NCBI RefSeq assembly: GCF_030864005.1
Contig: NZ_CP132976.1
Span: 6,262,001-6,326,000 of the forward strand
Direction of reading: 5' to 3'
Origin: Achromobacter seleniivolatilans
GTDB lineage: Bacteria > Pseudomonadota > Gammaproteobacteria > Burkholderiales > Burkholderiaceae_B
Length of the DNA: 64,000 nt
Part shown: in pieces, positions 10,676 through 19,901 of the stretch
How positions within the stretch are numbered: position 1 is the first letter of the stretch
How the letters are laid out: each line of letters opens with the position of its first letter
The notes under the pieces: model-generated
The model's database searches: none
Told to the model about the DNA's origin: nothing
What the model saw: the letters and a program-made list of their open reading frames with translations, nothing else
Made by a program: the position numbers and the translations under genes

Positions 10676-11929
10676 TTAGAGACCTTGCTTGCCTTCGTTA
10701 CCCGGGATGTACGGGCTCCACGGTTGAGCGCGGATCGGACCCTTGCTCTTCCACACGACATTGAACTGGCCATCCGCCTTGATTTCACCGATGTAGACCG
10801 GCTTGTGCAGGTGGTGGTTGGTCTTGTCCATTTCGATCATGTAGCCGTCAGGCGCGTTGAATTTCTGGCCGCCCATGTTGGCAATCACCTTGTCCACATC
10901 GGTGCTCTTGGCCTGTTCCACGGCCTGCTTCCACATATGGATGCCGATATAGGTGGCTTCCATCGGATCGTTGGTCACGACCGTGCTGGCGTTGGGCAGG
11001 TTTTTGGCCTTGGCATAGGCCTTCCACTTCTTGATGAACTCTTCATTCACCGGATTCTTGATCGACTCGAAGTAGTTCCAGGCGGCCAGGTGGCCCACCA
11101 GCGGCTTGGCATCCACGCCGCGCAGTTCTTCTTCTCCCACCGAGAACGCCACGACCGGCACGTCGGTTGCCTTCAGACCCGCATTGCCCAGTTCTTTGTA
11201 GAAGGGCACGTTGGAGTCGCCGTTGATGGTGGAGATCACCGCTGTCTTGCCGCCCGTGGCGAACTTCTTGATGTTGGCCACGATGGTTTGATAATCGGAA
11301 TGGCCGAACGGGGTGTAGACCTCGTCGATATCGCTGTCTTTCACGCCCTTGGAATGCAGGAAGGCGCGCAGGATCTTGTTGGTGGTGCGCGGGTACACAT
11401 AGTCCGTGCCCAGCAGTACAAAACGTTTTGCGCCGCCGCCGTCTTCGCTCATCAGATACTCAACGGCCGGGATCGCTTGCTGGTTGGGTGCTGCGCCCGT
11501 GTAGAACACGTTCTTCTCTAGCTCTTCGCCTTCATATTGCACGGGGTAGAAGAGCAGGCCGTTCAGTTCCTTGAACACCGGCAACACCGACTTGCGCGAT
11601 ACCGAGGTCCAGCAGCCGAAAACCACCGCCACCTTGTCCTGCGACAGCAACTGGCGCGACTTTTCAGCAAACAGCGGCCAGTTCGATGCGGGGTCCACAA
11701 TTACGGCTTCAAGCTTCTTGCCCATCACGCCGCCGTTGGCGTTGATTTCGTCGATAGTCATCAGGGCCACGTCCTTAAGTGACGTTTCCGAGATGGCCAT
11801 GGTGCCCGACAGGGAATGCAGGATGCCAACCTTGATGGTGTCTTCGGCGGCGAATACCTGCGGCATCCACCCGGACATGGCCAACAGGCTCACGACGGTC
11901 AGTTGCTTAAGGGCTAGTCTGCGTTTCAT
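10676..11929 (-). CDS. urtA: Urea-binding periplasmic protein UrtA
   Basis: A 417-residue solute-binding protein with a Sec signal peptide (about residues 1-27, ending VFA) and the UrtA opening 'DTIKVGILHSLSGTMAISET'. It captures urea or short amides in the periplasm and delivers them to UrtBC. The ATG at 11929 has a strong AGGAG site seven bases upstream. It is first in the urtABCDE operon and is preceded by a consensus sigma-54 promoter at 12005-12020, giving a predicted leader of about 65 bases. Confidence 0.95.
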   Translation of the reverse strand: MKRRLALKQLTVVSLLAMSGWMPQVFAAEDTIKVGILHSLSGTMAISETSLKDVALMTIDEINANGGVMGKKLEAVIVDPASNWPLFAEKSRQLLSQDKVAVVFGCWTSVSRKSVLPVFKELNGLLFYPVQYEGEELEKNVFYTGAAPNQQAIPAVEYLMSEDGGGAKRFVLLGTDYVYPRTTNKILRAFLHSKGVKDSDIDEVYTPFGHSDYQTIVANIKKFATGGKTAVISTINGDSNVPFYKELGNAGLKATDVPVVAFSVGEEELRGVDAKPLVGHLAAWNYFESIKNPVNEEFIKKWKAYAKAKNLPNASTVVTNDPMEATYIGIHMWKQAVEQAKSTDVDKVIANMGGQKFNAPDGYMIEMDKTNHHLHKPVYIGEIKADGQFNVVWKSKGPIRAQPWSPYIPGNEGKQGL

Positions 11930-12004
11930 GGTGACTCCTGGATGGAATGTGCCGGCTTGGCCGGCAGGAACGATCTGAACAACACCCGACAACATGGACT
12001 TCAA

Positions 12005-12020
12005 AGCAAAAGCCGTGCCA
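12005..12020 (-). promoter_or_regulatory. Sigma-54 (-24/-12) promoter of urtABCDE
   Basis: On the minus strand the sequence reads TGGCACGGCTTTTGCT, a full match to TGGCACG-N4-TTGCW, preceded by T (TTGGCACG). The invariant GG and GC are spaced as required. The predicted start is near 11994, about 65 bases before the urtA ATG. This predicts dependence on RpoN and an enhancer-binding activator such as NtrC. Confidence 0.85.
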
Positions 12021-12121
12021 AGTGCCTGCAAAGGGCAGGGCCGCCGTATGAGGAGGGGGTGTTTACGCGAGTGCCGGTGAGGGTTGCGTGGCGGCGTGCC
12101 TAGATTCAAAACAGTGCTGCG

Positions 12122-12138
12122 TGCACAAAACAGGTGCG
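12122..12138. promoter_or_regulatory. NtrC-like enhancer site between the two sigma-54 promoters
   Basis: TGCACA-AAACA-GGTGCG matches the 17-base NtrC dyad TGCACC-N5-GGTGCA with one mismatch in each outer arm. It lies roughly 110-120 bases upstream of both sigma-54 promoters, in the usual enhancer range for each. Confidence 0.65.
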
Positions 12139-12250
12139 TAGAACGCCCGCTCGCGGTGCGAAGGCAGCCAGCTGGCGCAGGCACGCACATCGCGGTTTTC
12201 CCGGGATTTAGCGGGGCAGCCAGAGGAGAAGCGCAGAAACTCGGCCAACA

Positions 12251-12266
12251 TGGCACGCCGATTGCT
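12251..12266 (+). promoter_or_regulatory. Sigma-54 (-24/-12) promoter of the allophanate hydrolase/urea carboxylase operon
   Basis: TGGCACGCCGATTGCT matches TGGCACG-N4-TTGCW at every defined position. The predicted transcription start is near 12277, giving a leader of about 27 bases before the ATG at 12304. Confidence 0.85.
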
Positions 12267-12278
12267 TGGGTATCCGTA

Positions 12279-12290
12279 CTTGTATACAAG
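12279..12290. promoter_or_regulatory. GntR-type operator palindrome
   Basis: CTTGTATACAAG is a perfect 12-base palindrome with the core TGTATACA, close to the GntR-family consensus yGTMKACy. It covers about +3 to +14 of the predicted sigma-54 transcript. The operon's last gene encodes a GntR/FCD regulator, so local autorepression is the simplest reading. Confidence 0.6.
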
Positions 12291-12303
12291 AAAGGATTCC
12301 AGC

Positions 12304-14139
12304 ATGAATGCCGTAGCAACTTCGATGCGCCCCGTGGGTTGGACGATTGCCCAGTGGCAGGCCGCCTACCGCGATGGCGGGGCACAACCTGAAGCGCTGT
12401 TGGCGGCCTATGCCGTCACGCCAGACTCACCGGCGGACAATGCCTGGATACAACGCGTTGATCGCGCGCTGCTGGAAGAACAGCTGGACGATTTGCAGCT
12501 GATGCTTGCGGCGGCAGGCGGCGACCTGTCGCGTCTGCCGCTATATGGCGTGCCGTTTGCCATCAAGGACAACATCGATGCGGCAGGGTGGCCGACGACC
12601 GCCGGCTGCCCCGAATTCGCGTACACGCCGGCCGAGGACGCCACGGTCGTGCAGCGCCTGCGCGCTGCGGGCGCCATCCTGATTGGCAAGACCAATCTGG
12701 ATCAGTTTGCCACCGGCCTGGTCGGTACTCGGTCGCCGCATGGCGCCGTTGCCAATACGTTCAATCCTGAATATGTCAGCGGCGGCTCCAGCTCAGGCTC
12801 GGCGTCGGTCGTCGCGCGCGGCATCGCGGCGTTTTCGCTGGGCACGGATACGGCAGGGTCGGGCCGTGTGCCGGCGGGTTTCAACAATATCGTGGGCTTG
12901 AAGCCAACCAAAGGTTGGCTCAGTACCGCGGGCGTGGTGCCGGCCTGCCGCACGCTGGATTGTGTCTCGATCTTTGCGTTGACGGTGGACGATGCCGAGC
13001 TGGTTGCCGATGTGGCGGGAGGCTTTGACGAGCGCGATCCTTATTCGCGTGCCGTGCCTGCTGGCGCGTCTTTGCCGTGGCCGAAAACGCCCAAGCTGGC
13101 GGTGCCCGCCGCCTTGGAATTCTTCGGTGACGCGCAAGCGGCGGCGGTGTTCGAGGACGCCGTGCATGCGTTGAAGGCTGCGGGTGCGGAAGTGGAGGTG
13201 ATCGACTTCACGCCGTTCAACGAATTGGCCGCGCTGCTGTATCAAGGCCCCTGGGTGGCAGAACGCTTTGCCGCTGTTGAAGCGCTGTGGAAAACCACGC
13301 CGGACGTCATCGACCCCATCGTGCGCGGCATCGTGGAACAAGCCGCCAACTACAGTGCGCTGGACGCGTTCAAGGCAGAGTACCGGCGTGCTGAACTGAC
13401 ACGCTTGATTCATCAATCCCTGGCGGGTTTTGACGCGCTGGTGGTGCCGACTTCGCCATCCATCTACACCATCGCCCAGCTGCGCGATGACCCCGTCACG
13501 CTGAATTCCCGCCTGGGCGTCTACACCAACTTTGCCAACCTGGCCGATCTATCGGCGCTCGCTGTGCCAGCAGGAATGCGCAGCGATGGTCTGCCATCTG
13601 GCATCACGCTGATCGGGCTGGCCTGGCAAGACCACGCGCTGGCGCAGTTCGGCCGCCAGTGGCAAACCCAGCGTGGATTGCCGTTGGGCGCAACCGGCGC
13701 GCCACTGCCCGCTGGCGTGGCGCTCAACAAAGCGCCCGTGGGTACGTTGCGCGTCGCCGTGGTGGGCGCGCATCTGACCGGCATGCCCTTGAACCATCAA
13801 CTGACGTCCCGCCATGCCGTGCTGGCTGAAAAGACGCGCACGGCCGCCGACTACCGCCTGTATGCGTTGGCTAACACCACGCCACCCAAACCCGGTCTGG
13901 TCAAGTCCGAGTCTGGCGCGCCGATCGAGGTCGAGCTGTGGGATGTGCCGGTGACCGCGTTTGGCGCCTTCGTGGCCGAGATTCCCGCGCCCCTGGGCAT
14001 AGGCACGCTGGAGCTGGAAGACGGCCGTCAGGTCAAGGGATTCATCTGCGAACCGCGTGGCCTGGACGGCGCGCGCGACATCACCGCCTTTGGCGGCTGG
14101 CGCGCCTATCTGGCCAGCCTGAACGCCACCCCCCGCTAA
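12304..14139 (+). CDS. atzF: Allophanate hydrolase
   Basis: A 611-residue amidase-signature enzyme that splits allophanate into ammonia and carbon dioxide, the second step of ATP-dependent urea breakdown. The catalytic lysine K88 (FAIKDNID), the GGSSSGS loop with the cis-serine near 163, and the nucleophile region GTDTAGSGRVP (S186) are present. A C-terminal domain of about 150 residues after residue 460 matches the second domain of AtzF/DUR1 enzymes. The ATG at 12304 has AAAGGA upstream; in-frame starts further up lie within the promoter. It is followed by urea carboxylase 26 bases later. Confidence 0.92.
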   Translation: MNAVATSMRPVGWTIAQWQAAYRDGGAQPEALLAAYAVTPDSPADNAWIQRVDRALLEEQLDDLQLMLAAAGGDLSRLPLYGVPFAIKDNIDAAGWPTTAGCPEFAYTPAEDATVVQRLRAAGAILIGKTNLDQFATGLVGTRSPHGAVANTFNPEYVSGGSSSGSASVVARGIAAFSLGTDTAGSGRVPAGFNNIVGLKPTKGWLSTAGVVPACRTLDCVSIFALTVDDAELVADVAGGFDERDPYSRAVPAGASLPWPKTPKLAVPAALEFFGDAQAAAVFEDAVHALKAAGAEVEVIDFTPFNELAALLYQGPWVAERFAAVEALWKTTPDVIDPIVRGIVEQAANYSALDAFKAEYRRAELTRLIHQSLAGFDALVVPTSPSIYTIAQLRDDPVTLNSRLGVYTNFANLADLSALAVPAGMRSDGLPSGITLIGLAWQDHALAQFGRQWQTQRGLPLGATGAPLPAGVALNKAPVGTLRVAVVGAHLTGMPLNHQLTSRHAVLAEKTRTAADYRLYALANTTPPKPGLVKSESGAPIEVELWDVPVTAFGAFVAEIPAPLGIGTLELEDGRQVKGFICEPRGLDGARDITAFGGWRAYLASLNATPR

Positions 14140-14165: not shown

Positions 14166-17100
14166 GTGTTCGATACCGTTCTGATTGCCAACCGTGGCGA
14201 AATCGCCGTCCGTGCCATCCGTACCCTTAAGCGCTTGGGCATCCGCAGCGTGGCGGTGTATTCCGATCCCGACCGCAATGCGGCGCATGTGCGCGAAGCC
14301 GATGTCGCGGTTGCGCTGGGCGGCGAGAAGGCCGCCGACAGCTATCTGCGCATGGACCTGCTGCTGGCCGCCGCGCGCGAGCACGGCGCGCAAGCCATCT
14401 ACCCGGGTTACGGCTTTCTATCGGAAAGCGCGGAGTTCGCGGAAAGCTGCGAAGCCGCAGGCATCGCCTTCGTCGGCCCCACGCCTTTGCAGATCCGCGA
14501 ATTCGGGCTGAAGCATCGCTCACGCGAACTGGCCGCCGAGGCCGGTGTGCCTATGACGCCGGGCACGGGTCTATTGGCCAGCCTGGGCGAAGCGCTGTCT
14601 CAGGCGGAACGCATTGGCTATCCCGTGATGTTGAAGAGCACGGCGGGCGGCGGCGGCATCGGTTTGTCGCGCTGCGAGAGCGAGGCCGAACTGACCGTGG
14701 CGTTTGATAGCGTGCAGCGCATGGGCGAGCACTTCTTTCGCGATGGCGGTGCGTTCATCGAACGTTATGTGGACAACGCGCGGCACGTGGAAGTGCAGAT
14801 ATTTGGCGACGGGGCAGGCCGCGTGCTGGCGCTGGGCGAACGCGATTGTTCGGTGCAACGCCGCAACCAGAAGGTCATTGAAGAAACGCCAGCGCCTTTG
14901 CTGCCTGCCGCGACCCGCGCCGCGCTGCTCGATGCCGCCGTGCAGTTGGGCGAGTCCGTCAACTACCGGTCGGCCGGCACTGTCGAATTCATCTACGACC
15001 CCGCGCGCGACAGCTTTTACTTTCTGGAAGTCAACACGCGGCTACAGGTTGAGCATCCGGTAACGGAAGCCGTCACCGGGCTGGATTTGGTGGAATGTAT
15101 GCTGCGCGTGGCAGCGGGCGAACCGCTGGATGTCGACGCCATGTCGCGCGCCCCGCAAGGCGCATCGATTGAAGTCCGCCTATACGCAGAAGATCCGTTG
15201 CGCCAATTCCAACCGTCGCCGGGCGTGTTGACCGAGGTGTCGTTTCCCGACGGCGTCCGGGTAGACGGCTGGGTTGCGACGGGCACGGAAGTGCCAGCGT
15301 TCTACGACCCGATGCTGGCCAAGCTGATCGTGCATGCCGCCACGCGTGACGCCGCGCTGGACAAACTGGCCGACGCCCTGGCGAAGACGCGGCTGCATGG
15401 CATTGCCACAAATCTGGATTACCTGCGCCAGATCGTGGCTGATGAGCGATTCCGCGCGGGCCTGTTGTCGACGCGATTTCTAGAGACCTTTGTGTACCGG
15501 CCCGCCGCGATCGAGGTCGTGGAAGCCGGCACCTACACCAGCGTGCAGGACTATCCTGGCCGCGTCGGCTATTGGGACATCGGCGTGCCGCCGTCTGGCC
15601 CGATGGATGACTACGCCTTCCGCGTGGCGAACCGCATCGTCGGCAACGCGCCTGATGCTGCGGGCATCGAGGCCACGTTGATGGGACCCACGTTGCGTTT
15701 TCATGGCGACGCCATCGTGGCGTTGACGGGGGCCACTTGCGCCGCCACGCTGGACGGCGAACCCGTACCCATGTGGCAACCGATAGCGGTGCGTTCGGGG
15801 CAGGTTCTGGTTACGGGCCGTGCGCTGTCAGGCTGCCGCAGCTACCTGGCGGTACGCAACGGCTTCGATGTGCCGGTCTATCTGGGCAGCCGCTCGACCT
15901 TCGCGCTGGGGCAGTTTGGCGGTCATGCCGGCCGGACGCTGCGTGTGGGCGACATGTTGCCATTGGTGCGCACGGAACTGGCGGGCACGTCGGCGACGCC
16001 GCCCGTCGCGGAACCGCAAGGCGCGCCCGCCGACATGATTCCGGTGTATGGCAACACATGGGAAATCGGCGTCTTGTACGGCCCGCATGGCGCGCCAGAC
16101 TTTTTCCAGCCCGAAGCGATCGAAACATTTTTCGCGGCGGACTGGGAGGTGCACTACAACTCGAACCGTCTGGGTGTGCGCCTGATCGGACCCAAGCCAA
16201 GCTGGGCGCGTGAGAACGGCGGCGAGGCCGGCCTGCATCCGTCCAATATCCACGATTGCGAATACGCCATCGGCAGCATCAATTTCACGGGCGACAGCCC
16301 CGTGATCCTGACGCGTGACGGTCCCAGCCTGGGCGGCTTCGTCTGCCCGGTCACGATTGCGCGGGCCGAGCTGTGGAAGGTGGGGCAGGTGAAGCCGGGC
16401 GACCGTATCCGTTTTGTGCGCATCGATTACCCGCAGGCCGTTGCATTGGAAGCCGCGCAGGACAGCAGCGTGGCGGCGCTATCGTCCGTGGGTCCTGCGG
16501 CAACGGCGCCATCTCCGGTGCCCGCGACCGTGTCTGAAACCATCGTCGCCGCGTTGGCAGCCGAGGGCTCGCGCCCGTCCGTGTCCTATCGCCAAGCGGG
16601 TGACGGCTACCTGTTGCTGGAATATGGCGACAACGTCCTGGACCTGGCGTTGCGCATGCGTATTCACCTGCTGATGGAAGCATTGAACGCGGACCCCATT
16701 GAGGGCGTGCTGGAGTTGTCGCCGGGAGTGAGGTCGCTGCAAATCCGCTACGACAGCCGCGTCATCCTGCAAGGCGCGCTGATTGCCTTGCTGCTGGAAA
16801 TCGAAAAGGGTCTGGCGGATGTTGCTACTTTGAAGGTGCCCACGCGTGTGGTCTACCTGCCCATGGCCTTCGAAGATTCGGCCACGTTGGGCGCCGTGCA
16901 GCGCTATCAGGAAACCGTGCGCGTCAGCGCGCCGTGGCTGCCGAATAACGTGGACTTCATTCAGCGGATCAACGGCCTGGACGAGCGGGACGAAGTCAGC
17001 CGCATCGTCTTCGATGCCAGCTATCTGATCATGGGCCTGGGTGACGTGTATCTGGGCGCGCCGTGCGCCGTTCCGATCGATCCGCGCCATCGCCTGCTGA

Positions 17101-17801
17101 CGTCCAAGTACAACCCGGCGCGCACCTTCACCGCGGAAGGCACGGTAGGCATCGGCGGCGTATACATGTGCATTTATGGCATGGACTCTCCGGGGGGATA
17201 TCAGCTCGTCGGCCGCACCTTGCCCATCTGGAACAAGTTCCTGAAGAATCCCGTATTCCAGGATGGTAAACCTTGGCTGCTGCGCTTCTTTGATCAGGTG
17301 CGTTTCTATCCGGTAACGGAAGCCGAATTGGATGTGTTGCGGGAAGACTTCCGCGAGGGGCGGGCCACCGTGCGCATCGAAGAAGAGACGTTCGACTTCG
17401 CGGCACATCAACGATTTTTGGTGGACCAGGCGGATAGCATCGCCGCGTTCCAGGCACGTCAGAAAACCGCGTTCGATGCCGAAGTGGCGCTGTGGAAAAC
17501 CGAGGATGTTGCGGCCGAGCAGGCCGTGGCCGAGCCCGAGGCCGAGACGGTCTTGCGGGAGGGCGAAAGAATGGTCAGCGCCGATATGTGCGGCAACATC
17601 TGGAAGATTCCGGTCCAGGTGGGGCAGAGCGTATCGGCAGGCGACACGCTGGTCGTGGTCGAGGCCATGAAGATGGCGCTGTCCGTCATTGCGCCGGCGT
17701 CTGGCACGGTGACGGCAATCCGTTGCGTGCCCGGCAAACCGGTGAACGCAGGAGATCCGCTGATCGTGCTGGCCGAAGACGCCACCTGCACTGTGACCTG
17801 A
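14166..17801 (+). CDS. uca: Urea carboxylase (biotin-dependent)
   Basis: A 1211-residue multidomain enzyme that carboxylates urea to allophanate using ATP, bicarbonate and biotin. Domains: biotin carboxylase about 1-445 (opening VLIANRGEIAVR, with the ATP-grasp region STAGGGGIG); carboxyltransferase made of a KipA/AHS2-like half (about 455-760) and a KipI/AHS1-like half (about 800-1020); biotinyl domain at the end with EAMKM, biotin lysine K1169. The start is GTG at 14166 with AGGGAG upstream. Its stop overlaps the start of the GntR gene. Size fits the family; bioB lies 43 kb away in the same window. Confidence 0.95.
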   Translation: MFDTVLIANRGEIAVRAIRTLKRLGIRSVAVYSDPDRNAAHVREADVAVALGGEKAADSYLRMDLLLAAAREHGAQAIYPGYGFLSESAEFAESCEAAGIAFVGPTPLQIREFGLKHRSRELAAEAGVPMTPGTGLLASLGEALSQAERIGYPVMLKSTAGGGGIGLSRCESEAELTVAFDSVQRMGEHFFRDGGAFIERYVDNARHVEVQIFGDGAGRVLALGERDCSVQRRNQKVIEETPAPLLPAATRAALLDAAVQLGESVNYRSAGTVEFIYDPARDSFYFLEVNTRLQVEHPVTEAVTGLDLVECMLRVAAGEPLDVDAMSRAPQGASIEVRLYAEDPLRQFQPSPGVLTEVSFPDGVRVDGWVATGTEVPAFYDPMLAKLIVHAATRDAALDKLADALAKTRLHGIATNLDYLRQIVADERFRAGLLSTRFLETFVYRPAAIEVVEAGTYTSVQDYPGRVGYWDIGVPPSGPMDDYAFRVANRIVGNAPDAAGIEATLMGPTLRFHGDAIVALTGATCAATLDGEPVPMWQPIAVRSGQVLVTGRALSGCRSYLAVRNGFDVPVYLGSRSTFALGQFGGHAGRTLRVGDMLPLVRTELAGTSATPPVAEPQGAPADMIPVYGNTWEIGVLYGPHGAPDFFQPEAIETFFAADWEVHYNSNRLGVRLIGPKPSWARENGGEAGLHPSNIHDCEYAIGSINFTGDSPVILTRDGPSLGGFVCPVTIARAELWKVGQVKPGDRIRFVRIDYPQAVALEAAQDSSVAALSSVGPAATAPSPVPATVSETIVAALAAEGSRPSVSYRQAGDGYLLLEYGDNVLDLALRMRIHLLMEALNADPIEGVLELSPGVRSLQIRYDSRVILQGALIALLLEIEKGLADVATLKVPTRVVYLPMAFEDSATLGAVQRYQETVRVSAPWLPNNVDFIQRINGLDERDEVSRIVFDASYLIMGLGDVYLGAPCAVPIDPRHRLLTSKYNPARTFTAEGTVGIGGVYMCIYGMDSPGGYQLVGRTLPIWNKFLKNPVFQDGKPWLLRFFDQVRFYPVTEAELDVLREDFREGRATVRIEEETFDFAAHQRFLVDQADSIAAFQARQKTAFDAEVALWKTEDVAAEQAVAEPEAETVLREGERMVSADMCGNIWKIPVQVGQSVSAGDTLVVVEAMKMALSVIAPASGTVTAIRCVPGKPVNAGDPLIVLAEDATCTVT

Positions 17802-18532
17802 TGATGCGGCTGGAATCCGTGCAGGTCAGCCCGGCCATGCGGCAGTCGCCCGCGCTGGCCGGCACGCTGGCAGACCAGGTGTATCAGCGGATCAAGGATG
17901 ATCTGTTCGATTTCCGCATGCTGCCGGGCGAGCGTTTCACCGAGGCGGATCTTGTGGTGCGACTGGGCGTCAGCCGCACACCGGTGCGGCTAGGCTTGGT
18001 CCGTCTGGAGCGTGAAGGTTTCGTACTCGCCAGACCGCGCAGCGGCTGGCAGGTGCGGCCATTTGATTTTGAGCGCTTTGAAGCGCTCTACGACGTGCGG
18101 GTGGTGTTGGAACAGGCCGCTGTGGATAAGCTGTGCTCGCTCGAAAATATGGACGAAGCGGGGATTCTTGGCGCGTTGAAAGACGTATGGCTGGTGCCCT
18201 TGCCGCAACGCATTCTGGATGGCCGGCTGGTGGCGCAGTTGGATGAAGCGTTTCATTGTTCGCTGGTGGCGGCGGCAGGCAACCCTGAAATGGCGCAGAT
18301 CCATCGCGACGTCACCGAAAAGATTCGGATCGTGCGGCGTCTGGATTTCACCAAGGATTTTCGCGTGGATGCGACTTACGAGGAGCACGCGGCCATTCTG
18401 CGCGCGGTGCTGGCGCGCCGCGCGGACGAAGCGCAGCGCATGCTGCGGTCCCACATCGAGATGAGCAAGGCCGAAGTCAGGAAGATCACGCTTCATATGC
18501 TGCATGAAGCGCGGGAGAACGGGGTGGGGTGA
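17801..18532 (+). CDS. GntR/FCD-family regulator of the urea operon
   Basis: A 243-residue DNA-binding protein: winged helix at about residues 25-90 ('TEADLVVRLGVSRTPVRLGL' recognition region) and an FCD ligand-binding domain in the C-terminal 140 residues. The ATG overlaps the urea carboxylase stop (ATGA), so it is co-translated with the enzymes. A candidate operator is the palindrome at 12279-12290 in front of the operon. It probably represses and senses urea, allophanate or a related metabolite, but the effector is unknown. Confidence 0.85.
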   Translation: MMRLESVQVSPAMRQSPALAGTLADQVYQRIKDDLFDFRMLPGERFTEADLVVRLGVSRTPVRLGLVRLEREGFVLARPRSGWQVRPFDFERFEALYDVRVVLEQAAVDKLCSLENMDEAGILGALKDVWLVPLPQRILDGRLVAQLDEAFHCSLVAAAGNPEMAQIHRDVTEKIRIVRRLDFTKDFRVDATYEEHAAILRAVLARRADEAQRMLRSHIEMSKAEVRKITLHMLHEARENGVG

Positions 18533-18571: not shown

Positions 18572-19387
18572 TCATCCCTGCAATTGCCTGTACACCTCTT
18601 GCGACACTCGTTGCAATTCATCCCGGCTGACCGCGCCAGACAGCGCGTAGCCAAATTGTCCTTCGACCCAATAAAACACCCGCACCGGCCCTTCCTGCGT
18701 GAACTGGAAGGCGGTCTGCCCGCCTGCGGCTTCGCGGGTCACGTACAGCGTCAGGCGCTGCCCATCTGGCGCGCCATACATGAATAGCGCCACTGGCCCG
18801 GCGCCGCCAGGCAGCAGGCGTCCGCCCACCAATTCATAACCGGCTTGCGACAACGATGGCGCGCGCACTGGCGCGCCCATGCGCTTGGTGAGCCAGGTCA
18901 CCAGCCCCTTTTCGTTATCGGCGCTGACTTCCACCGGGCGGCCCATGTCGGGCGCGTATACCGCATGTGCAATGGCTGCGCGCTGGGCATAGCCGCCTGC
19001 GGCGCGGTCCGGGCTTGCAGTGGCAAGCACGGTTTGCAAGTGCTGGGCGTCCATCGCGCCACGCGCCACCCAGGCAGCGCTGGCGCTGACGGCGGCCAGG
19101 GCGACGCTGGCGGCCAGCGCGCGCCAGGGCCAGTGACGCGCGGGAGCTTTAAGCGGCAAGCGCAGGGGCAAGGGCTCATCCAGCACCGGGTCCAGCAAGG
19201 CGTGCAGCGCGCGGCGCTGGGTCTGCCAATCGGTTACCCGTGTTTGATCCTGCGGATGCGCGGCAAGAAATGCGTCAACCTCAGCATGGCGCGCGGGCGG
19301 CAATTGCCCGTCGGCATACGCATGCAGATCGGCTTCGGTAATCGGGGTGCCCGCAGAGGGCACCGGATGAAGGTGTTTGTCGTTCAT
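18572..19387 (-). CDS. Membrane anti-sigma factor (zinc-finger-like N-terminus)
   Basis: A 271-residue protein with an N-terminal region like anti-sigma domains ('ITEADLHAYADGQLPPARHAEVDAFL'-like, about residues 16-45), one membrane helix near 90-110 and a periplasmic domain of about 160 residues. The HxxxCxxC zinc motif of classical ZAS proteins is not present, so it would be a zinc-free variant. It starts one base after the ECF sigma stop with no Shine-Dalgarno site, implying translational coupling. It should hold the sigma factor inactive until an envelope signal arrives. Confidence 0.8.
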   Translation of the reverse strand: MNDKHLHPVPSAGTPITEADLHAYADGQLPPARHAEVDAFLAAHPQDQTRVTDWQTQRRALHALLDPVLDEPLPLRLPLKAPARHWPWRALAASVALAAVSASAAWVARGAMDAQHLQTVLATASPDRAAGGYAQRAAIAHAVYAPDMGRPVEVSADNEKGLVTWLTKRMGAPVRAPSLSQAGYELVGGRLLPGGAGPVALFMYGAPDGQRLTLYVTREAAGGQTAFQFTQEGPVRVFYWVEGQFGYALSGAVSRDELQRVSQEVYRQLQG

Positions 19388-19388
19388 A

Positions 19389-19901
19389 TCATTTCACGCG
19401 ATGCAGCCGGCTGATGGTGTCGCGCCCCTGCATCAGCGCGCTCAGTTTTTCACGGGCGCGGGACAGACGCGACATTACCGTGCCGATTGGCACGGCAAGC
19501 ACTTGAGCGGTTTCCTGATAGGACAGGTCTTCCACGCAAATCAGCAACAGCACTTCCCGCTGCTCGGCCGGCAAGGCTTGCAGGCAACGGTCCAGATCGC
19601 GTACCTCCAGGTGATCGGTCTGCGTGGCGCGCACTGGCGCGTCGGGCAGGTCGCCCGGGGCGGTCTGATCCGCCCGCCGCTGAGTGGCGCGCATGCCATC
19701 GATGAAATGGTTATGCATGATGCCGAACATCCATGCTCGCAGTTCGCCGCGACGCTGCCAGCGGGAAAAGCGGCTCCAAGCGCGCTCCAGCGTGTCCTGC
19801 ACCAGGTCATCGGCCCGGTGCAGGTCTCCCGTCAGCCCGCGCGCATAGCGCCGCAGGCTGGGGATGCAGGCCAGGATCAGGGTTTCGTCTTCGGCGCGCA
19901 T
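19389..19901 (-). CDS. ECF-type RNA polymerase sigma factor
   Basis: A 170-residue sigma factor with region 2 (about residues 10-75, 'DLVQDTLERAWSRFSRW') and region 4 (about 110-160, 'LPAEQREVLLLICVEDLSYQETAQVL' with the helix-turn-helix 'AVPIGTVMSRLSRAREKL'). It sits between a small secreted protein and its probable anti-sigma factor on one strand. The target regulon likely includes its own operon through the GGAAT-N17-CGTC element at 20345-20370. Confidence 0.92.
   Translation of the reverse strand: MRAEDETLILACIPSLRRYARGLTGDLHRADDLVQDTLERAWSRFSRWQRRGELRAWMFGIMHNHFIDGMRATQRRADQTAPGDLPDAPVRATQTDHLEVRDLDRCLQALPAEQREVLLLICVEDLSYQETAQVLAVPIGTVMSRLSRAREKLSALMQGRDTISRLHRVK

Follow-up and report, generated by a model that had tools for sequence, protein, structure and literature searches.

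The rutABCDEFG operon of Escherichia coli is activated by NtrC and repressed by RutR, a TetR-type protein which is divergently encoded. An RpoN-holoenzyme site has been placed between rutA and rutR (PMC8743547), and helix-face dependence of NtrC activation has been described for nifLA but not for glnA (review PMC7408454). In Burkholderia cenocepacia, urt, urease and a urea-carboxylase gene lose expression in an ntrC mutant; this carboxylase gene sits among 'urea carboxylase-related' transporter genes and may be of the guanidine type (PMC5491218). As for FadR-type GntR regulators, their operator consensus is described as TKGT/ACMA boxes (PMC4494728). Since urt and a urea-carboxylase gene are already reported to be under NtrC control in B. 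cenocepacia (PMC5491218), what is new about the locus described here is rather its shared arrangement, its ladder of spacings and its GntR lock. Literature searches did not find such NtrC/GntR control of this operon, and PMC4617892, which concerns Mycobacterium smegmatis, ties neither NtrC nor GntR to such an operon in its available text.

The source genome is 6.86 Mb long and its nearest named relatives, judged from atzF, are Achromobacter species. Within the stretch of 64 kb that was analysed, hereafter the window, a gap of 374 bp (11930-12303) divides urtA on the minus strand from atzF-uca-gntR on the plus strand. The urtA gene (10676-11929; TIGR03407, 589.5 bits, cut-off 492.75) leads urtABCDE, which extends to 6372 and whose products UrtB, UrtC, UrtD and UrtE are each above their NCBIfam cut-off. 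On the other side are found atzF (12304-14139), encoding allophanate hydrolase (TIGR02713, 845 bits, cut-off 511.05), uca (14166-17801), encoding a urea carboxylase (TIGR02712, 1950.4 bits, cut-off 1303.85), and, as the final gene of the operon, gntR (17801-18532), encoding a FadR-type GntR regulator with an FCD domain (PF00392 and PF07729 above gathering scores). The equivalog scores for the urea carboxylase / allophanate hydrolase pathway thus pass their cut-offs. Downstream of gntR, the window also holds an ECF-type sigma factor gene (19389-19901, minus strand) and, at 18572-19387, a possible anti-sigma partner for which the Pfam search gave no match.

We consider it likely that the gap works as a two-key divergent region, in which NtrC would activate both operons while GntR would block breakdown only, until released. 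Under nitrogen shortage, phosphorylated NtrC would bind a central enhancer, in which weaker sites flank a good dyad at a distance of about two helical turns. By looping it would reach the sigma-54 polymerase on each of the outward promoters, so that urtABCDE (import) and atzF-uca-gntR (breakdown) would both be turned on. GntR, from the last gene of the breakdown operon, would bind a palindrome at the atzF start and block that promoter, and a pathway metabolite, most plausibly allophanate, would release it. Import would then follow nitrogen shortage alone, and breakdown shortage plus urea. The sites, their conservation, their spacing and the gene linkage are observed; from them we infer the protein binding, the direction of GntR action and the inducer.

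Both promoters match the sigma-54 pattern TGGCACG-N4-TTGCW exactly and face outward. The promoter of urtABCDE, TGGCACGGCTTTTGCT, is at 12005-12020 on the minus strand with a predicted start at ~11994, and that of atzF-uca-gntR, TGGCACGCCGATTGCT, is at 12251-12266 on the plus strand with a predicted start at ~12277; with GC placed at -13/-12, the predicted leaders measure ~65 nt for urtA and 27 nt for atzF. GG at -24, GC at -12 and the TGGCAC-N5-TTGC spacing are present in both. Complete promoters on the two strands were what the original prediction had announced, and these two are indeed the only exact matches in the window, against a mean of 0.09 in shuffled sequence; two matches were seen in 0 of 100 shuffles, and the pair as chance sites was rejected on this basis. 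The whole genome contains 13 exact matches against 0 for a reversed-pattern control, but the shuffle rate of the window, scaled to 6.86 Mb, gives ~10 expected matches, so that the genome-wide excess over chance is not secure. The unusual feature is the presence of two exact sigma-54 sites within one gap, one facing each gene.

The gap was compared among 35 genus loci, i.e. those from 34 of the 37 genus genomes plus one further locus, with L063, a repeat of the G003 locus, omitted; atzF is missing from G010 and from two incomplete genomes, G028 and G033. The site on the urtA side keeps at least 11 of 12 positions in all 35 loci (exact in 20), and the one on the atzF side at least 10 of 12 (exact in 32), these raw counts overstating the evidence as related loci are not independent. 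All three elements of the original prediction, the two sigma-54 sites and the central dyad, are thus kept in 35/35 genus loci while the spacers are ~50% conserved: identity to the window reaches 0.48 and 0.55 of alignment cells in the spacers, 0.76 in the urtA leader and 0.90-0.98 in the four sites.

The central dyad of NtrC type, TGCACAAAACAGGTGCG, is located at 12122-12138 and is a GCAC-N7-GTGC site whose centre stands at ~-147 from the predicted atzF start and at -136 from that of urtA, both inside the range of about -90 to -150 expected of an NtrC enhancer. It fits 10 of the 12 fixed positions of TGCACYN5RGTGCA and, on score alone, is not stronger than chance in the window, where the pattern with two mismatches has 11 matches against 14.9 in shuffles. 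Genome-wide, NtrC core matches number 255 against 152 for the control. Given that the score is at chance level, the NtrC-type assignment was made because the dyad is conserved and positioned: GCAC-N7-GTGC is found in 35/35 genus loci, which led us to reject a chance site, and, of 52 distinct loci with the divergent layout, 50 keep all 8 core bases. The predicted dyad between the promoters is therefore present and conserved, but its match is 10/12 and, taken alone, not above chance.

The original prediction overlooked the GTGC at 12114-12117, a second dyad at 12144-12160 and the palindrome at 12279-12290. The GTGC, invariant in the 35-locus alignment, belongs to a conserved NtrC half-site on the plus strand (12102-12118) with its centre 20 bp from that of the main dyad. 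The second dyad, CGCCCGCTCGCGGTGCG, is degenerate, with its centre 22 bp off the main one, and its GC-N-CG and GTGCG are invariant in the same alignment. Tandem dyads are seen outside the genus as well: among 18 pairs in 37 loci from other genera, several of which come from close relatives, 9 are 20-22 bp apart (0.13 expected) and 7 are 30-32 bp apart (0.14 expected), that is 16 pairs against 0.27 jointly. This survey omitted 9 of 46 loci without a site scoring at least 9, several of them having a near miss at -12. The genome encodes an NtrC above cut-off and two rpoN genes above cut-off, L082 (G000:C1:4680796-4682169) and L083 (G000:C1:1440291-1441715), the latter with an exact sigma-54 site just upstream (G000:C1:1441793-1441808).

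The distances from dyad to promoters were examined in 52 non-identical loci of the 72 divergent ones. From the dyad to the urtA promoter (d-), the 52 loci show 93, 103-106, 115-118, 128-129 or 138-140 bp; from the dyad to the atzF promoter (d+), 47 loci show 92, 104-105, 114-116, 125-129, 138 or 148-149 bp, and five Bordetella loci (131, 141, 142, 152 and 164) fall off the d+ ladder of the genus. Differences were then evaluated on path-disjoint pairs of the atzF tree that differ by at least 5 bp, the period being scanned from 10 to 12. In the genus, d+ pairs differ by 12, 13, 11, 11 and 24 bp (p 0.003) and d- pairs by 10 and 22 bp (two pairs, p 0.08); jointly, the seven tree-separated pairs give steps near 11.5 bp (p 0.0008). 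Over all loci, the test gives p 0.0016 with 12 pairs, from which the L064/L101 pair was omitted as its 22-bp difference stems from a shift from one dyad to another that is nearly equal; including this pair brings the test to 14 pairs and p 0.0006. As a control, the urtA leader gives p 0.37 in the genus (5 pairs) and p 0.53 overall (9 pairs). The letters of the spacers are scrambled. Because the sample is small, the null simple and the species partly common to d+ and d- pairs, we regard the evidence as moderate that the distances between dyad and promoters vary in increments of about one helical turn. Such steps fit DNA looping that is sensitive to helix face. Taken with the conservation of the parts in 35/35 loci and the presence of NtrC and sigma-54 genes, they make the reading of the gap as a shared sigma-54/NtrC enhancer well supported at the sequence level.

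The palindrome CTTGTATACAAG at 12279-12290, which we propose as a GntR operator, extends from +3 to +14 relative to the predicted start of atzF. It has a single exact copy in the window, and the genome holds two occurrences of its 10-bp core. It has the form of the TKGT/ACMA palindrome of FadR-type operators and is accompanied by a linked, co-occurring FCD-GntR gene. Its variants (T/G on the left, A/C on the right) remain inside the TKGT/ACMA consensus, and the core is altered in 5/35 genus loci.

That NtrC and sigma-54 alone switch both operons, the palindrome being no working operator, we hold to be unlikely. All the sigma-54/NtrC parts are confirmed and, in B. cenocepacia, expression of urt, urease and a urea-carboxylase gene depends on NtrC (PMC5491218), which favours this simpler account, but it leaves out how the palindrome is distributed. 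In a count over 80 named loci, with a score of at least 9/12 required no more than 85 bp from the atzF start as assigned, the element was found in 69/69 loci with a GntR gene nearby, in 3/7 without one and in 2/4 truncated loci, while the shuffle control gives 2.6% per locus. This set of loci extends over a number of genera, beta and gamma, among them Achromobacter, Bordetella, Pseudomonas (CTTGGATACAAG), Pectobacterium, Erwinia, Kluyvera, Burkholderia and others. Moreover, it is restricted to one leader, with scores of at least 9 in 51/52 atzF leaders and in 0/52 urtA leaders. Of the 36 genus genomes searched, 35 encode a GntR orthologue that is at least 75% identical, the exception being G010, which is also without atzF and has just a 54% GntR paralogue. 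In two Brenneria loci (L143 and L149), the operator-like CTTGTATACTAG is kept while a GntR homologue was not found beside the operon. In Achromobacter ruhlandii LMG 1866 (L117), the match to urea carboxylase breaks off at residue 1144, with no match to gntR beyond it; the end of this operon looks rearranged.

A GntR that binds the palindrome as activator or accessory factor, and not as repressor, is improbable in our view. Location and linkage, from which the action of GntR is read here, are compatible with this alternative, but a site at +3 to +14 (~-6 to +6 in some other loci) is expected to block sigma-54 polymerase. Furthermore, the operator begins 28-32 or 20-25 nt past the first base of the promoter in every operator-bearing locus except L161, where the promoter is not recognisable, and this offset means that the element covers the predicted start.

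The chance that an enhancer-binding protein other than NtrC acts at the central dyad seems slight. Several NtrC-like proteins are encoded in the genome, yet a dyad of the same form precedes the gene upstream of ntrC, putatively glnA. The dyad also comes close to the consensus given for NtrC in PMC8743547. Another exact sigma-54 site with tandem NtrC-like dyads lies before a small gene (L009:1379-1516), adjoined by a GntR paralogue (G000:C1:185840-186502) that is 53% identical to the operon's GntR and that, on inspection by eye, has no such palindrome near its start. Finally, a role of 12279-12290 in RNA, as a CUUG-loop-CAAG hairpin, can practically be dismissed, for the element does lie in the predicted transcript directly 5' of the ribosome-binding site, but the recurring CTTGTATACCAG and CTGGTATACAAG disrupt the stem uncompensated and yet fit the FadR-type DNA consensus.

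Among the 80 named loci, urtA is divergent within 600 bp in 33 (Achromobacter, Bordetella, Schauerella), divergent but more than 600 bp away in one (L140), and downstream of gntR on the same strand in 25, mostly gamma. In two loci with urtA downstream of gntR, L144 and L151, a separate sigma-54 site serves urtA, and a separate operator follows it by 30-31 nt. Where the layout is divergent, the operator leaves the transporter out, so import would follow nitrogen shortage alone and breakdown would need a second signal. The idea that one enhancer switches import and breakdown together, as first proposed for this DNA, thus holds for the shared enhancer, but 'together' is probably incomplete: a GntR-type operator and a regulator gene are on the breakdown side only, which leads us to expect that breakdown requires a further signal, derived from the substrate.

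The substrate and this second signal were considered from the proteins. Residue 706 is the sole column with Asn in all 16 proteins of the urea set and Asp in two 53%-identical paralogues. Asn is described as the mark of urea carboxylases and Asp of guanidine carboxylases (PMC12186494), and we take the Asn706 column to be the specificity position meant in that source. The carboxylase of the window hence looks urea-type; guanidine control was rejected, no Rfam riboswitch, or any other Rfam family, reaching its gathering score in the window. The locus of one Asp-type paralogue (L188) contains a guanidine-II riboswitch, and that of the other (L187) has no riboswitch at gathering score. Urease, as an alternative route for urea, was set aside: in 41 genus genomes searched, which were sampled from a larger group and of which two are incomplete, none passes the urease alpha cut-off and 19 give weak matches below it. 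In the FCD domain of GntR, Asp148, His152, His196 and His218 are invariant in 69 aligned proteins, that of the window included. We assume that this Asp and the three His form a metal site, usually carboxylate-binding, and on that account allophanate, a negatively charged intermediate, is our best guess for the inducer. In yeast, urea genes are induced by allophanate (PMC9772842); for GntR, allophanate as the inducer is a proposal.

A wider GntR regulon is not claimed. In 14 genus genomes, the exact 10-bp core has 1-4 occurrences each (0-2 for the reversed control), and 12 of the 14 have it at atzF. The only other TTGTATACAA of the source genome (L080:1501-1510) lies ~100 bp upstream of a gene that we take to be dctA-like, and the same gene follows the same site in a second genus genome (L166; 1 of 15 loci).

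A more general statement can be put forward tentatively, and we would lean slightly against it as a whole: that a family of beta- and gammaproteobacterial urea operons works as an AND gate of NtrC/sigma-54 and an allophanate-sensing GntR repressor on the sigma-54 start, that in Achromobacter and Bordetella the transporter is outside the repressor's reach on a second sigma-54 promoter of the same enhancer, and that natural whole-turn changes in distance show the enhancer to need a fixed helical orientation toward each of the two promoters. If true, it would give a target, a motif and a testable inducer for a GntR family across beta- and gammaproteobacteria, and would explain when bacteria apparently without urease make the ATP- and biotin-dependent urea pathway. 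The spacing ladder is furthermore a natural series for asking if one bacterial enhancer with two promoters is helix-face constrained.

Guanidine carboxylase operons share with this locus a homologous carboxylase and an allophanate hydrolase but are described as riboswitch-controlled, with Asp in place of Asn (PMC12186494), and no riboswitch reaches gathering score in the window. Closer in content is the atzF-uca-gntR-urtABCDE cluster of Ectopseudomonas guguanensis (PMC13296017), which has the same genes; there gntR stands between uca and urt, and the transporter is on the other side of gntR, beside a urease operon. 'NtrC' is absent from the main text of that paper, and an operator was not found there. 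FadR-subfamily GntR operators (PMC4494728) have in common with the present one the TKGT/ACMA palindrome and the FCD ligand domain of the regulator; here two bases separate GT from AC instead of the usual three, which the broader consensus quoted in that paper permits, and 'urea' is absent from its main text. The upstream part resembles the NtrC/sigma-54 enhancer promoters (glnA, nifLA; the E. coli NtrC regulon) in its -24/-12 sites, its tandem upstream dyads placed about 100-150 bp from the start and a possible helix-face dependence as reported for nifLA (cited in PMC7408454), but differs from glnA and nifLA in having one enhancer set between divergent sigma-54 promoters, with both distances stepping by about whole helical turns. 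Lastly, the proposed logic is that of E. coli rutABCDEFG, which likewise joins a global nitrogen activation to a local metabolite-sensing repressor; here, the repressor would be of the GntR/FadR type, its gene closing the operon and its site covering the sigma-54 start.
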